Shown here: piece after piece, positions 12,413 to 18,586 of the stretch
Layout: each line of letters starts with the position of its first letter
Numbering within the stretch: the first letter of the stretch is position 1
Virus record (IMG/VR): IMGVR_UViG_3300048033_001694
Coordinates: 1-29,073 of that record
Reading direction: 5' to 3' (one strand)
Source: a virus
Length of the DNA stretch: 29,073 nucleotides
Position numbers and translations under genes: made by a program
Notes under the pieces: model-generated
What the model saw: only the letters and a program-made list of their open reading frames with translations
The model's database searches: none
Told to the model about the DNA's origin: nothing

Positions 12413-13066
12413 TCACCGCAAGGTTTGAATGAAGTCGAAGCTGGCGCCGCGACTGAGGGCCTGCCGGCCGGTACCATAGGTCGGCTCTGGCAGGAGCCGC
12501 GCCTTGCACGCTGGCCTGACAAGCGAGACCTGCAAGCCGGCGACCGCACCGGCCCTCAAATTGGGGACGACCTCAAGTGACGGCGAGAGCCCTGTGCTTG
12601 AGGCGTTCCCTCCGACAACGACACGATGGAGGGCGTGCCGGATGGGGTTCGTTCCGTATTCAAACGACAGCATGTCGCCAGCGGACAAGGTAAAGCCCGG
12701 CGGCAGGCCATTCAGCCGGAGCTCCCGCATGTTGGAGGAGACCGAGTGGATCGTGATGGTGCGGCCGGCAAGTGATGTGCCGTTGCGATCAGACGTCGGC
12801 CCCACCTTTCGAGGGTCGTGACAAAGGAAGCTGGCCCCCGGCTGATCAAGGAGCCCCAGAAGCGCTTCCATTGCTGCATGGCGATCGTGGATTGCCGGCG
12901 CGAGCCTTATGCTACCAGCCCAGAGGGATGCCCCAAGGCTGGCGCTTATGATGGTCCCGTCCCCGAGGCGGCTATGCTCCTGCGGGTGCGACAGCCGGAA
13001 CGTCACCTCCTCGACACGCAAGGCGCCGAGGAAATGATCGTAGCTGAGAGGGTATGTCAGCGCCAT
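12413..13066 (-). CDS. Distal tail-like protein
   Basis: A 217-residue protein starting at the ATG at 13066, which overlaps the tape-measure stop as TAATG. It is beta-rich: FRLSHPQEHSRLGDGTIISA, then LRLNGLPPGFTLSAGDMLSF, then HALHRVVVGGNASS, and a C-terminal strand GASFDFIQTLR. Position directly after the tape measure matches the distal tail or tail-tip M/L-like protein that caps the tube and recruits the hub. No enzymatic motif is seen. The family name is unknown to me. Confidence 0.6.
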   Translation of the reverse strand: MALTYPLSYDHFLGALRVEEVTFRLSHPQEHSRLGDGTIISASLGASLWAGSIRLAPAIHDRHAAMEALLGLLDQPGASFLCHDPRKVGPTSDRNGTSLAGRTITIHSVSSNMRELRLNGLPPGFTLSAGDMLSFEYGTNPIRHALHRVVVGGNASSTGLSPSLEVVPNLRAGAVAGLQVSLVRPACKARLLPEPTYGTGRQALSRGASFDFIQTLR

Positions 13067-15576
13067 TATCCGCTCCGTCGTGGGTCTTGGCTCACGCGGG
13101 CGACGGTGCGCGGCGCGACAAGCCGGTCATAGTCCCGCAGGCTTCCTTGAACGATCTCAACAGACTGGCTGCTGGCCCGATCAAGGATGCTGCCGACGAG
13201 CCCGTCGCCAAGCTCGATGCGAACGCGGGACATGCCGCCGGCATCGCTGCCATATTGCGCGGCCTCACGGCGGTTCAGGACCCGCTCCCCTCGCTGAAGG
13301 ATCGTCGGGACCTCATCCGGGCGGAGCCCCGCCCAGCCGCCAGAGTGCATGCGCGGCGCGCCAGCGAACGCGAGTGCAGGGACCTGCCGGGAGTACCCAG
13401 AGAGCCCGACCACGCCGCCAGCGTGCGAAACAGCCGCGGTGACGGCCGATCCGCCGCCCAAGCCCCCGAAAGCCCCAGCGAGCGCGTTGGCGATTGGGCC
13501 AAGCACTGCGTTGCGGAAGGTCAGGACCGCGAGGTCCTCAAGGATCGAGGCGACGAGGCCTTTGAAGTCGAGCTTGCCGGTCTTGACGAAGTTGCGAAAC
13601 GCGTTCTCGGCAGACTGGAAGCCGTTTACCAAGGTCTGACCAAGGCCCTTGCCCCAATCCATCGCGTCCTTGGCATAGCTCGCGAGCGAATTCGTGACTG
13701 CCTGCCAGCCCGTTGCGGCCTCCTGACTGCCCTCCGCCGCCTGTCGTCCGGCCTCCCGTGCTGCGTTGCCGGCGCCGTTCGCCGCCTCCTCGGTGGAGGT
13801 AAGCGCCGTAGCGAGCCGTTCAGCCGAGGTGCCAGCATCGTCAAGGGCAGCCGCGCCTTCATCACCGGCTCCGGAAACTGCGTCCCTGAGCGCCTGCCAA
13901 GAGGTGAGAGGTGCCGTGGCGCCGCCCGCAAGGTCCGCGGCTGCTTGCCGATAGGTGTTTGCGGTGGCGAGCGCCTCTCTTGCGACGCCATCAAGGCCAA
14001 GATCGGGTGCGCTGAGGGGGTTGTCCTCGAACGCCCTCCTGAAAGCTTCCGCGGCGGCGGTCCCGGCCTCTGCCGAGGACCCTGCGAATGGGTTCGGAAT
14101 GTCGCCGAGGTTGATTTCACCAATTTCGCCGAAGGTAGTCTCGACCCCAACCGCTGCGAGAGCATCCCTGATTTTGCCTGTGAAGCTGTCGATCCTACGG
14201 ATCGCGCCGTTCAGCATCGCCTCGATGCCGTCAAGCATCCGGTTGGCCGCCGAGAATACGAGATCGCCGATCACCGCAGGAAGGCGCGACCAGATTTCTC
14301 TGATCGCCAAAAGCACGCCCTCAAAGGTGTTCGCTGCGGCGTTCCCGAAATCAACGACCCGATCGATTGCGCCAGCAATGCCCGTCGCCGCATCGGCTTT
14401 CAGGTCGTAAAACATCGCCGTGGCGCGTGCGCCAGCCGCCGAAGCCCCCAACTTGATCCGGTCCCACACCTCAACGGCGACATCCTTCAAGAGGCGCATC
14501 GCCTCGCCGAAGCCGCCAGCACCGGAGGCAAGGCGCGTGAACCAGTAGACCAGCTCGCCTGCACCAACGATGAGCGCACCAATGCCGGTTCGGATCAGCG
14601 CGCCTTTGAGAACCACCAGCGTCGTGGCCAGACCACGCACTGAGAGTGCCGCAGCGGCCATCGCGGCCACCCAGCGACCAGCGAGGAAGGTCGCGAAGGT
14701 GCCTGCGTAGACCGCCAACCGGTCAAGGTTGCCCAGAACCGCACCAAAGGCCCTGCTGATCGGACTGCTGGAAGAGGCAAGCGCCACGAAGGCATTGGCC
14801 ACCGCCTCCAGCGACGGGGCAAGCGCCACGGCAATCCGGTTGCGCACGCCCGTAAACACCTGGCCAATGCTGACCAGCGCCAGTTCTGAGCGGCGCATGG
14901 CCGCGATGGCGTCAGCATCCAGAATAGCCCCAAGTGCCTGCGCCTGTGCCCCGAGCCTTGTCATTTCGGCACCACCGTTTTGCAGCAGCGGAATGAGCCG
15001 CGTGGTATCGGACGCCATGGCCTCGAGATAGAAGGTCATTTCCTGCTGGCTGACGCCTGCCTTCTCAAGGCTTGAGACATAGAGCTGGAGCGCCTCAGGA
15101 CCGGAAAGGCGGGCGAACTGGTCTGCCGTCACGCCCACGCGCGGCGCGATGTTCTCGAAAAAATCCGCCATCGGGCCACCGCCCGTTTGCAGGAAATCAC
15201 CGACGCGGTCATTCACGTCCTTCAGGATGTCGGCGAGCTTTTCCTGTTCTATCCCCACCGTGGCAGAGGCCGCCGACCACCGCTGAAACACTTGAGGTGC
15301 CGCATTTGCAACCTGGGAGAGCTGATTGATTTCATTGGCGGCGGCAACAGTGGACCGGGTCATTGCAACAACGGCACCGGCCAAGGCGGCCGCAGCAGCG
15401 GTGGCTGCAATGCGCGCACGGCGCGCGAAGGCTGCCATGCGGGCATTTGCCTGGTCCAATTCACGGCTCAGACGCCCCATACCCCGCGACCCGGCCGCAC
15501 CAACACCTTCCAGCTCGGCACGCACTTGCCGGCCGCCGGTCGCAGAGAGCCTGACAGAGACACGTTTTTCAGCCAT
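13066..15576 (-). CDS. Tail length tape measure protein
   Basis: An 836-residue protein from the ATG at 15576 (MAEKRVSVRLS), overlapping the upstream stop by 8 bases. A TTG four codons earlier at 15588 is the alternative. The N-terminus is helical (RLSRELDQANARMAAFARRA) followed by an Ala-rich hydrophobic segment, then the conserved tape-measure region (INQLSQVANAAPQVFQRWSA to LIPLLQNGGAEM). Further hydrophobic segments occur in the middle (for example VYAGTFATFLAGRWVAAMAA), as usual for tape measures that enter the membrane during ejection. The C-terminal part is Gly/Ala-rich and ends in a lambda-tail-like region (GERVLNRREAAQYGSD). At roughly 1.5 Angstrom per residue, the length would predict a tail of about 125 nm. 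Confidence 0.85.
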   Translation of the reverse strand: MAEKRVSVRLSATGGRQVRAELEGVGAAGSRGMGRLSRELDQANARMAAFARRARIAATAAAAALAGAVVAMTRSTVAAANEINQLSQVANAAPQVFQRWSAASATVGIEQEKLADILKDVNDRVGDFLQTGGGPMADFFENIAPRVGVTADQFARLSGPEALQLYVSSLEKAGVSQQEMTFYLEAMASDTTRLIPLLQNGGAEMTRLGAQAQALGAILDADAIAAMRRSELALVSIGQVFTGVRNRIAVALAPSLEAVANAFVALASSSSPISRAFGAVLGNLDRLAVYAGTFATFLAGRWVAAMAAAALSVRGLATTLVVLKGALIRTGIGALIVGAGELVYWFTRLASGAGGFGEAMRLLKDVAVEVWDRIKLGASAAGARATAMFYDLKADAATGIAGAIDRVVDFGNAAANTFEGVLLAIREIWSRLPAVIGDLVFSAANRMLDGIEAMLNGAIRRIDSFTGKIRDALAAVGVETTFGEIGEINLGDIPNPFAGSSAEAGTAAAEAFRRAFEDNPLSAPDLGLDGVAREALATANTYRQAAADLAGGATAPLTSWQALRDAVSGAGDEGAAALDDAGTSAERLATALTSTEEAANGAGNAAREAGRQAAEGSQEAATGWQAVTNSLASYAKDAMDWGKGLGQTLVNGFQSAENAFRNFVKTGKLDFKGLVASILEDLAVLTFRNAVLGPIANALAGAFGGLGGGSAVTAAVSHAGGVVGLSGYSRQVPALAFAGAPRMHSGGWAGLRPDEVPTILQRGERVLNRREAAQYGSDAGGMSRVRIELGDGLVGSILDRASSQSVEIVQGSLRDYDRLVAPRTVARVSQDPRRSG

Positions 15577-16257
15577 GATGGTGGTCAATCTCTTCGTTGG
15601 TTTTGCGGACCATCACCGCCTCAATGGGTGGCAAGAGTTCTGCGATGATCAGGGGCGAAAGCCCAAGGGCCGCCCCGAGTTGCAGGGCCGCACCCATGTC
15701 CCAACCGAGGACAGCGCCACCGCTCATCCCGCCTGCAACGCGAACTTGTCCGCCAAGCCGCTGGACGAGGTCCCAGATCTGCCAGCCCTCAAGTGTGCGT
15801 GGCGCATGCAGGCGGCGCGGGCATTCCGCGCAAACAGAGGGACAAGCCGCGCAATATTCACCGCCCCCGCCGAATTCCCAGTCGGCGAGAGCGGTCAGAC
15901 GTTTTTTTCCGCATCCAGTATCAGCGCGCCCGCGATGTATTTGGTCTGAAACGCTTCAAAGATGGGCCAGAGTTCCAAGAGCGCATCGATGCCTTCTGCG
16001 GTCAGCGCCAACGGTTTCCCGTCGCAATCGCCTATGCCCTCCCAGTCCTTCACGACGATGCGCGCGACAGCTTTGGCCACGATACGGGCCAGGTCGTCGT
16101 TGGAGGCGCCGGTTTCAGCATCGGTTGCGGCGGCGACGATCGCCGGATCGCTGCGCGCCGCCAGCATGATGGCCGTTGTCAGGGGCTCTACCAGCAGGCG
16201 AACGCCATGGCCAAGATCAAGCCAATGCGGCTCAGTGGACAGGTTCAGTCGGAGCAT
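15569..16257 (-). CDS. Tail assembly chaperone fusion (G-T type) made by -1 frameshift
   Basis: Predicted 229-residue fusion: 119 residues of the chaperone frame, then slippage at 15907-15901 into a frame that runs to TGA at 15569. The added 110 residues read KRLTALADWEFGGGG, then a CxxC-x3-CxxC cluster (EYCAACPSVCAECPRR), then GWQIWDLVQRLGGQVRVAGG, LGWDMGAALQLGAALG and IIAELLPPIEAVMVRKTNEE. This extension is clearly protein-like but has no usable start codon with a ribosome binding site near its 5' end. That fits frameshifting as in lambda G/GT, where the T part binds tail tube and tape measure. It lies exactly between tail tube and tape measure, as G/GT does. Frame join: complement of 15901-16257 followed by 15569-15901. 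Confidence 0.75.
15861..15907 (-). other. Programmed -1 ribosomal frameshift element
   Basis: The slippery heptamer A AAA AAC is at 15907-15901, in the correct phase (zero frame GAA AAA AAC). The spacer is six bases, 15900-15895, and includes the zero-frame TGA. A 13-bp stem follows without mismatches: 5' arm CCGCTCTCGCCGA (15894-15882), loop of eight bases, 3' arm TCGGCGGGGGCGG (15873-15861); two of the pairs are G-U. The -1 frame is open for 110 codons. Heptamer type, spacer length and strong stem all match known bacterial and phage -1 frameshift signals. Confidence 0.8.
15895..16257 (-). CDS. Tail assembly chaperone (G-like)
   Basis: A 120-residue protein from the ATG at 16257, which overlaps the tail-tube stop as TGATG; a longer frame to 16296 is in the tail-tube gene. 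It begins MLRLNLSTEPHWLDLG, contains MLAARSDPAIVAAATD, ARIVVKDWEGIGDCDG and LTAEGIDALLELWPIFEAF, and ends AGALILDAEKNV. This is the pattern of the short, acidic, helical chaperones upstream of tape measures. It normally coats the tape measure before tail-tube polymerisation and is not in the virion. Its last codons form the slippery heptamer used for the longer product. Confidence 0.75.
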   Translation of the reverse strand: MLRLNLSTEPHWLDLGHGVRLLVEPLTTAIMLAARSDPAIVAAATDAETGASNDDLARIVAKAVARIVVKDWEGIGDCDGKPLALTAEGIDALLELWPIFEAFQTKYIAGALILDAEKNV

Positions 16258-17198
16258 CAGTGGTCCTCGCGGTCGTTGGTTAGGGTGACTGTGCACATCC
16301 GGCCAAGACTTAGGTCACTCGCCGCCTGCCAGTCGAAGGTTGCCTGCACACCTTGTGGACCTGAGATTTCGATCCGGGGGCGTGGCAGATAGACGGCATG
16401 CGCGGTGACGGTGAGGCTTTCGCCCGTTGGCAGCGCGTAGGAGAATTCAAGCTCGCAGGCCTCGCCATTGATCGCCTGTGTCACCAGCGTCTGGTCCGCG
16501 AAGCGCACGACGACATTGCCGGTAAGCGCTGCGATAGACGGGTCCGCGCCGTCGATCTTGCCATCCGCTCGGATGGTTTCAATGCGGTCGAGATTGTTGG
16601 CATAGGTCAGATCGGCGGAGACAACATTGCCAATGTTCGCGCCATTTCGCGTGATCGCTCCGTTGAAATGCCCAAAGCGCTTCAGCGCGATGTTAGCCGG
16701 TGTACCTACCGCGCTTGTCGTGGCGATGGCCTCGCCCTGTGCCACGATACTGGCCGTTGCCGTCAGCAGCCCCGAGCGCGCCATCTGCCAGTTGATGCTG
16801 TCCACCATGCAGCCGGAATACATCGCATAGCGCGGCACCTCTGGCATGCCGGTCTCGACTGAGAAGCTGGGCAGCGCCCAGTTTCCGGAGCGGAACTCGT
16901 GGCTATAGGGCGCATCGGCACCCGTTGTGGTGGGCGCGCCAAAAGCGGCCTTCAGCCAGAAGCCGAAGGCCTCGGCATCGATCGGCATCACCACGTCCCC
17001 ATCCACCGTCACCGCATCCTTGATCGGCGCCTGTGGATCGCGTCCGTAGCCCAGCAGTTCCGAGGTCTGCAGTGGTTGCTCGGCTCCCAGCGTCGTGCTG
17101 GCAAAGGGCATCTTGGTGAAGCCGCTCAAAGGCGGCGTGCCATAGGTCGTCTCAAACGCCAGCGCCATTTGCGCCCGCGCGCCTTGGGCTCGTGCCAT
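16257..17198 (-). CDS. Major tail tube protein (lambda V position)
   Basis: A 313-residue protein. The start at 17198 has AAGGAG about 7 bases upstream; an in-frame extension to 17336 is rejected. The N-terminus ARAQGARAQMALAFETTYGT is followed by TSELLGYGRDPQ, DVVMPIDAEAFGFWLKAAFG, VDSINWQMARSGLLTATASI and a C-terminal beta domain. This is the tail-tube family pattern of alphaproteobacterial phages (PF18906-like), with a likely Ig-like addition at the C-terminus. It polymerises around the tape measure. It lies between the U-like terminator protein and the chaperone, as V does in lambda. Confidence 0.8.
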   Translation of the reverse strand: MARAQGARAQMALAFETTYGTPPLSGFTKMPFASTTLGAEQPLQTSELLGYGRDPQAPIKDAVTVDGDVVMPIDAEAFGFWLKAAFGAPTTTGADAPYSHEFRSGNWALPSFSVETGMPEVPRYAMYSGCMVDSINWQMARSGLLTATASIVAQGEAIATTSAVGTPANIALKRFGHFNGAITRNGANIGNVVSADLTYANNLDRIETIRADGKIDGADPSIAALTGNVVVRFADQTLVTQAINGEACELEFSYALPTGESLTVTAHAVYLPRPRIEISGPQGVQATFDWQAASDLSLGRMCTVTLTNDREDH

Positions 17199-17223
17199 GG
17201 TGTTTCTCCTTGAATGGGTCTCG

Positions 17224-17692: not shown

Positions 17693-17768
17693 GGGCCTGT
17701 AGCTCAGCGGTTAGAGCAGGGCGCTCATAACGCCTTGGTCGCAGGTTCGAATCCTGCCGGGCCTACCA
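17693..17768 (+). tRNA. tRNA with anticodon CAT, probably tRNA-Ile2 (lysidine type)
   Basis: A 76-nt cloverleaf with encoded CCA: acceptor GGGCCTG / CGGGCCT, anticodon stem GGGCG/CGCCT with loop CTCATAA, and T stem GCAGG/CCTGC with loop TTCGAAT. Anticodon CAT could be elongator Met or Ile2. Pairs C4-G69 and C5-G68, known positive determinants for the lysidine synthetase TilS, are present, and the variable loop TTGGTCG resembles Ile2, so I favour Ile2 reading AUA. It is antisense to the tail operon. Confidence 0.85.
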
Positions 17769-17770
17769 CC

Positions 17771-17855
17771 GCCCCCTTGGCGGAATCGGTAGACGCCAGG
17801 GACTTAAAATCCCTTGCCTTCGGGCGTGCCGGTTCGAGTCCGGCAGGGGGCACCA
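17771..17855 (+). tRNA. tRNA-Leu (TAA)
   Basis: An 85-nt class II tRNA with a long variable arm and encoded CCA. The acceptor GCCCCCT pairs with AGGGGGC, the anticodon loop is CTTAAAA (anticodon TAA), and the variable arm TGCCTTCGGGCGT and T arm GCCGG/CCGGC are clear. It lies two bases after the preceding tRNA and reads UUA (and UUG), a rare codon in GC-rich genomes. Confidence 0.93.
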
Positions 17856-17857
17856 AA

Positions 17858-17947
17858 GGAAGTGTGGCCGAGTGGTTTAAGGCTCTGGTCTTGAAAACCA
17901 GCGTAGGTGAAAGCCTACCGTGGGTTCGAATCCCACCGCTTCCGCCA
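17858..17947 (+). tRNA. tRNA-Ser (TGA)
   Basis: A 90-nt class II tRNA with encoded CCA. The acceptor GGAAGTG pairs with CGCTTCC (one wobble), anticodon stem CTGGT/ACCAG has loop CTTGAAA (anticodon TGA), the variable arm GCGTAGGTGAAAGCCTACC is long and paired, and the T arm GTGGG/CCCAC is intact. It is two bases after tRNA-Leu and ends six bases before the stop of the DUF6441 gene on the other strand. Confidence 0.93.
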
Positions 17948-17953
17948 GCCCTT

Positions 17954-18586
17954 TCACGACGCCCGCGCATCGAGCCAGTTCGCCACGATCAGCCCCGGTA
18001 TCGCTGCCTGCGCCCGTTCGGCGTCCCGCGCCAGCGACAGCCTTTTGGCGAGTTTCACCTGGGGCACCAAGAGGAAAATCGGCACCGTGCTCTGTCCACG
18101 CCCAGTCTTGGATCGTGATGCCACGCCCAGCCCACGGCTGTTCAGCCGCCCGTCGGCAACGAGCAGGCTTGGACCGCCCCGCCGATAGACAAACCGCAAG
18201 CGCAACCCGCGCCGCCTTTCCCATTCGCCGGGCGTGAGCGCCTTGCCGCGCGTGCCCTTACCGGCCGCTGGCGTTGGGATGGCAAGCCAGAAGCCGTCCT
18301 TTGAACGGATCAGTGGGCCCGTGTCATGCGCCCCGATGATCTGGGGTGCGTTGGACCAGACCAGTGCGGCCGCCTCGAGGCTTTCGCCTGCCGCCGGATA
18401 GGTCTTGGACCTGATCGTGTTGGCAAGCCGCTGTCCAAGGCGAGCGCGCATGATCTGGGCGCGCCAGTCGGATTTGAGACCAGAGCCTGCAACGCGCATG
18501 GCCGTGGTCACGGCCTTTTCACCGGCGAGGATTTCAGCGCGCATGGCGTTGACGATGTCGCCCGTGACGGAGAGGTCGAGTTTCAC
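17954..18586 (-). CDS. DUF6441 minor tail / head-tail completion protein (lambda Z position)
   Basis: A 210-residue protein starting with GTG at 18586, overlapping the upstream stop as GTGA. Characteristic segments are MKLDLSVTGDIVNAMRAEIL, AGSGLKSDWRAQIMRARLGQ, GAHDTGPLIRSKDGFWLAIP, RLRFVYRRGGPSLLVADGRL and TVPIFLLVPQVKLAKRL. This matches the DUF6441 family found in Rhodobacteraceae phages between the head-tail adaptor and tail terminator genes. Its role is probably head-tail or neck completion, like Z or gp10 of HK97-type phages. Its 3' end stops six bases short of the antisense tRNA-Ser. Confidence 0.75.
   Translation of the reverse strand: MKLDLSVTGDIVNAMRAEILAGEKAVTTAMRVAGSGLKSDWRAQIMRARLGQRLANTIRSKTYPAAGESLEAAALVWSNAPQIIGAHDTGPLIRSKDGFWLAIPTPAAGKGTRGKALTPGEWERRRGLRLRFVYRRGGPSLLVADGRLNSRGLGVASRSKTGRGQSTVPIFLLVPQVKLAKRLSLARDAERAQAAIPGLIVANWLDARAS

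Follow-up and report, generated by a model that had tools for sequence, protein, structure and literature searches.

How a tailed phage would translate a 110-codon reading frame that has no start codon of its own is the question raised by this locus, which lies in a 29,073-nucleotide stretch of IMG/VR record IMGVR_UViG_3300048033_001694 (the whole of this stretch is here called the window). The carrier is a tailed phage of marine Rhodobacterales-type bacteria. The frame, designated T, overlaps the end of a gene designated G, and an initial annotation had read the two as G-T tail assembly chaperones joined by a programmed -1 ribosomal frameshift. Judged from the sequences of the window and its relatives, this is almost certainly what the locus encodes; the signal, its conservation, the gene context and a database match of G all speak for that reading. 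The genes concerned are the following.

16257-17216, minus strand: tail tube gene, directly upstream of G; matches Phage_tube_2
16257-15895, minus strand: gene G, tail assembly chaperone, with a zero-frame product of 120 amino acids
15901-15572, minus strand: T domain in the -1 frame, 110 codons; its stop TGA is at 15571-15569
15572-16257, minus strand: GT fusion of 229 amino acids, predicted from a -1 slip at 15901
13066-15576, minus strand: tape measure gene, directly downstream and overlapping the end of T

The order of tail tube, G/T and tape measure genes is that of G/GT chaperone loci. The flanking assignments rest on a Phage_tube_2 match for the tail tube gene (2.3e-59) and on matches of the tape measure gene to Tape_meas_lam_C (8.1e-18) and a PHROG tape measure family (6.6e-113), while G itself matches PHROG 313, "Tail assembly chaperone" (E 3.7e-14). 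A PDB sequence search with G returned nothing credible (best E 0.015, to designed proteins). The genes are tightly packed: G starts at an ATG at 16257, which overlaps the tail tube stop codon and has GAGG 7 bases upstream, and the stop of T overlaps the start of the tape measure gene (ATG 15576). The 3' end of G reads GAA AAA AAC GTC TGA, with the stop at 15897-15895, and the following elements lie on and after it.

15907-15901, minus strand: slippery heptamer A AAA AAC, in phase with G (GAA AAA AAC)
15900-15895, minus strand: 6-nt spacer GTCTGA, which contains the G stop TGA and has the same length in relatives
15894-15882, minus strand: 5' arm of the stem, CCGCUCUCGCCGA, half of a 13-bp stimulatory stem
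15874-15881, minus strand: loop CTGGGAAT, 8 nt
15873-15861, minus strand: 3' arm of the stem, UCGGCGGGGGCGG, the other half of the stem

All of these elements had been proposed in the initial annotation, and all were recovered at exact coordinates: the in-phase heptamer, the six-base spacer, the 13-bp stem with an 8-base loop and no mismatch, the 110 open codons of the -1 frame, and the predicted 120- and 229-residue products just before the tape measure gene. One refinement is that two of the 13 pairs between CCGCUCUCGCCGA and UCGGCGGGGGCGG are G-U. The 49 nt 3' of the heptamer fold at -28.3 kcal/mol, compared to -14.3 +/- 2.5 for 200 dinucleotide shuffles of the same 49 nt (z = -5.6), none of which folded as well. 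Of the 39 XXXYYYZ heptamers on the minus strand, the next best has a downstream fold of -19.7, an overlapping register excepted. A search of Rfam found no family matching the frameshift element and returned one chance hit far below its cut-off.

Elsewhere in the minus-strand tail/connector module, three tandem tRNA genes (Met-CAT, Leu-TAA and Ser-TGA) lie antisense at 17693-17947 on the plus strand. Of 128 loci that could be tested, 23, counting the window, carry a Met(-Leu(-Ser)) set oriented this way and placed 1.9 to 3.4 kb upstream of the slip site, sometimes together with Thr-TGT. This is an unusual arrangement, an optional antisense tRNA cassette within a morphogenesis module. An 81-amino-acid open frame (GGIRTHGRLSPTLVFKTRALNHSATLP...) at 17725-17970 on the minus strand is the antisense of this cluster; it is probably spurious, and peptides of this type are a common misannotation.

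Conservation was assessed in loci related to the T domain. A T-domain scan of viral contigs gave 560 related stretches, of which 80 were kept, and a scan of prokaryote genomes gave 131, of which 80, mostly Rhodobacterales prophages, were kept; 14 phage records also matched. In the 166 loci of this first set with readable sequence, one of them the window, the heptamer is A AAA AAC in 161, G GGA AAC in 3 and A AAA AAA in 2, and it is always in phase. An extra search for the DUF7697 family in 289 evenly drawn genomes of the class, plus eight host genomes, yielded 15 loci not already in the set, 12 with A AAA AAC, 2 with G GGA AAC and 1 (L182) with a broken T frame. An in-phase heptamer of the form X XXY YYZ is thus present in 180 of 181 loci (173 A AAA AAC, 5 G GGA AAC and 2 A AAA AAA), loci that are mutually related and so do not count as independent trials. 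The heptamer is kept across T domains down to 33% identity. The sole exception, L182, is a 3.4-kb contig that lacks the heptamer where one would expect it and whose T frames are broken; it looks like a decayed copy, and it was dropped as a counterexample because its T frame is broken as well. No relative was found in which the heptamer is lost while the T frame is kept intact. In another locus, L160 (3001-3021), the heptamer and stem are intact but a TGA stands at T codon 8, which looks like a decayed T or a sequence error. The position of the G stop varies with distance from the window: in its clade (>70% T identity), G stops two codons past the slip site, within the spacer, in 84 of 86 distinct loci, and in most of the more distant loci G continues for 22 to 44 codons.

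Codon usage across the signal indicates that selection acts on the signal itself and not on the protein alone. The slip codons, Lys AAA and Asn AAC, show no synonymous change in 130 distinct sequences, and the preceding GAA is equally constant in the 129 that have Glu at this position. Within long frames of the same loci, AAA makes up 31% of Lys codons (AAG 69%) and AAC 64% of Asn codons (AAT 36%). At 17 codon positions upstream, synonymous differences occur in 20 to 73% of same-residue pairs; for the 3' stem arm (codons F G G G) the values are 0, 5, 9 and 2%, and at many codons past the stem they are back at 40 to 70%. The stem is conserved as a structure, an element that many but not all G/GT frameshift sites have downstream. 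Across 88 distinct signal regions, 94.2% of its cells hold standard pairs, compared to 45-60% when the 3' arm is slid. Two-sided covariation in the close set is modest (7 cells, 3 pairs), with few double changes because the helix is nearly invariant there. Among distant relatives (L179, L180, L181, L184 and L187), the stem is rebuilt from different bases and starts about 5-7 nt past the heptamer, and L180 and L181 retain a strong stem alongside a 6-nt insertion. The comparison of homologues that the initial annotation had called for bore it out, with slip codons free of silent change, a similar spacer distance and a stem 94% paired or rebuilt.

The claim that T lacks a start codon also held. 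In the window, the -1 frame contains no ATG, GTG or TTG from its upstream stop (57 nt ahead of the slip site) as far as T residue 20, and 107 of 136 distinct loci have none in the T frame between the upstream stop (or -150) and +60. Only one of the remaining loci with a possible T start has a Shine-Dalgarno-like match, and a search for homologues in which T has both a start and a ribosome binding site found none. The first possible start inside T falls at residue 18 to 65 depending on the relative, a position that is not conserved; the window has an ATG at residue 59. T in the relatives has no credible start of its own.

That internal ATG bears on how T has been described in databases. T matches Pfam DUF7697 (PF24752) with 90.4 bits (7e-26; curated cut-off 27 bits) over T residues 61-110, and PHROG 11212 with 2.5e-20 over residues 62-108. 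Each model covers no more than the C-terminal half of T, about 50 residues, and T is this family at full length. Since position 1 of the DUF7697 model falls on the internal Met59 of T (the matching part being 15572-15727, minus strand), the model looks truncated, and we infer that it was built from gene calls cut short by the missed frameshift; PHROG 11212 probably arose in the same way. T residues 1-58 are strongly conserved and include, outside both models, a C-x2-C-x3-C-x2-C motif at residues 17-27, whose four cysteines are invariant in a 46-sequence alignment and possibly form a zinc knuckle. An AlphaFold2 model of T built with 46 relatives was too poor for a fold search (pLDDT 57, pTM 0.36), a PDB sequence search with T returned nothing credible (best E 0.47), and a literature search found no paper mentioning DUF7697.

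Could the second frame be reached in some other way? Most members have a run of seven A before the C of the heptamer, and A runs are known slippage sites, so transcriptional slippage rather than ribosome slippage might open the T frame. Yet five relatives use G GGA AAC, which has no long run, and L158, L180 and L181 have only six A. A downstream stem that is conserved, and rebuilt in distant relatives, also suits a ribosomal stimulator, and we consider slippage during transcription very unlikely. Translation of T from an internal start such as Met59, giving a short DUF7697-like protein, is less probable still. The restriction of the DUF7697 and PHROG 11212 matches to T residues 61-110 and 62-108, together with the window's ATG at residue 59, is what such a start would give; against it, no start is conserved, with first candidates scattered over residues 18 to 65, and residues 1-58, four invariant cysteines among them, are strongly conserved. 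Sequencing error or gene decay is a negligibly likely cause of the frame break: L160, with its early T stop, and L182, with its broken frames, do look decayed, but about 180 contigs and genomes share this arrangement, and such conservation already refutes the idea.

Similar loci are known from other phages. The heptamer of phage lambda is G GGA AAG. The lambda G/GT tail assembly chaperones (Levin 1993; Xu 2004, 2013, as cited in the review PMC5009743, which describes G and GT) share with the window a place flanked by the genes for the major tail protein and the tape measure, the -1 direction, an overlapping T without a start and a slip near the end of G. The window differs in its heptamer, A AAA AAC, and in the strong, conserved 13-bp hairpin that follows, and database searches with its T returned no match to a lambda-type family. 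Closer homologues occur in the Rhodobacter capsulatus phages RcKemmy, RcKai and RcFrancesLouise (MW677517, OP009272 and MW677512), whose G is 37-41% and whose T is about 50% identical to those of the window. These phages use G GGA AAC, and in them G stays open for about 30 codons beyond the slip site, compared to two in the window. Their records annotate the frameshift as a joined CDS, and its length agrees with slippage at G GGA AAC. R. capsulatus phages are also touched on in PMC4882933. Synechococcus phage Sc-Yong805-1 and Nostoc phage Nsp-JY21 (OP858991 and PP438413) carry a homologous G and T with an A run and a strong hairpin but have the heptamer A AAA AAA, and their records give two separate genes, with T begun at an internal ATG and the frameshift missed. 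The suggestion that this frameshift may be unannotated therefore stands for the latter records and fails for the R. capsulatus phages.

What the sequences show is the signal, its phase, its conservation and its gene context; that ribosomes slip here, how often they do so and what G and T do is what we infer. On the standard reading, the Lys and Asn tRNAs slip back simultaneously with the hairpin as stimulator, and the frameshift would proceed as follows. A majority of ribosomes would stop at the G TGA and release the 120-amino-acid chaperone. A minority would be held up by the 13-bp hairpin, whereupon the tRNAs on AAA in the P site and AAC in the A site could re-pair one base back, on AAA AAA, and the slipped ribosomes would read on in the -1 frame to yield the 229-amino-acid GT fusion. 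If the lambda model described in PMC5009743 carries over, the tape measure would be coated by G, and the tail tube protein would be recruited to the tape measure through the T domain.

The choice of A-site codon deserves comment. In Escherichia coli, A_AAA_AAC is reported to be much less shift-prone than A_AAA_AAG (PMC5009743). A pattern scan, limited to what its pattern captures and short of an inspection of every tRNA, found a UUU lysine tRNA gene in all eight host genomes and a CUU gene in one only, Pararhizobium, confirmed with ARAGORN. A dedicated CUU lysine tRNA that makes AAG a poor slip codon was considered and rejected: with CUU in one of eight hosts only, it fails to explain the use of AAC. 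Because seven of the eight hosts appear to have only the UUU lysine tRNA, AAG should be available as a stronger site, although it is never used at the A site of the cassette. We offer tentatively, at somewhat below even confidence, that DUF7697-type T is a distinct T-domain family with a four-cysteine, possibly metal-binding knuckle right after the slip site, and that the consistent use of AAC and never AAG at the A site, despite an apparently single UUU lysine tRNA in seven of eight hosts, would fit selection for a weaker heptamer, boosted by a strong hairpin so as to set a low GT:G ratio.

This kind of frameshift is well known, and the locus, whose homologues are already annotated in R. capsulatus phages, is an added case that leaves the known mechanism unchanged. 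What it corrects is annotation: some public records, and apparently DUF7697 and PHROG 11212 too, lack the first 40 to 60 residues of T, and these two families of "unknown function" could be given names that identify them as T halves of tail assembly chaperones. The cassette is a deeply conserved, compact -1 frameshift from Alphaproteobacterial phages, usable as a reporter and a possible model for an Rfam entry.
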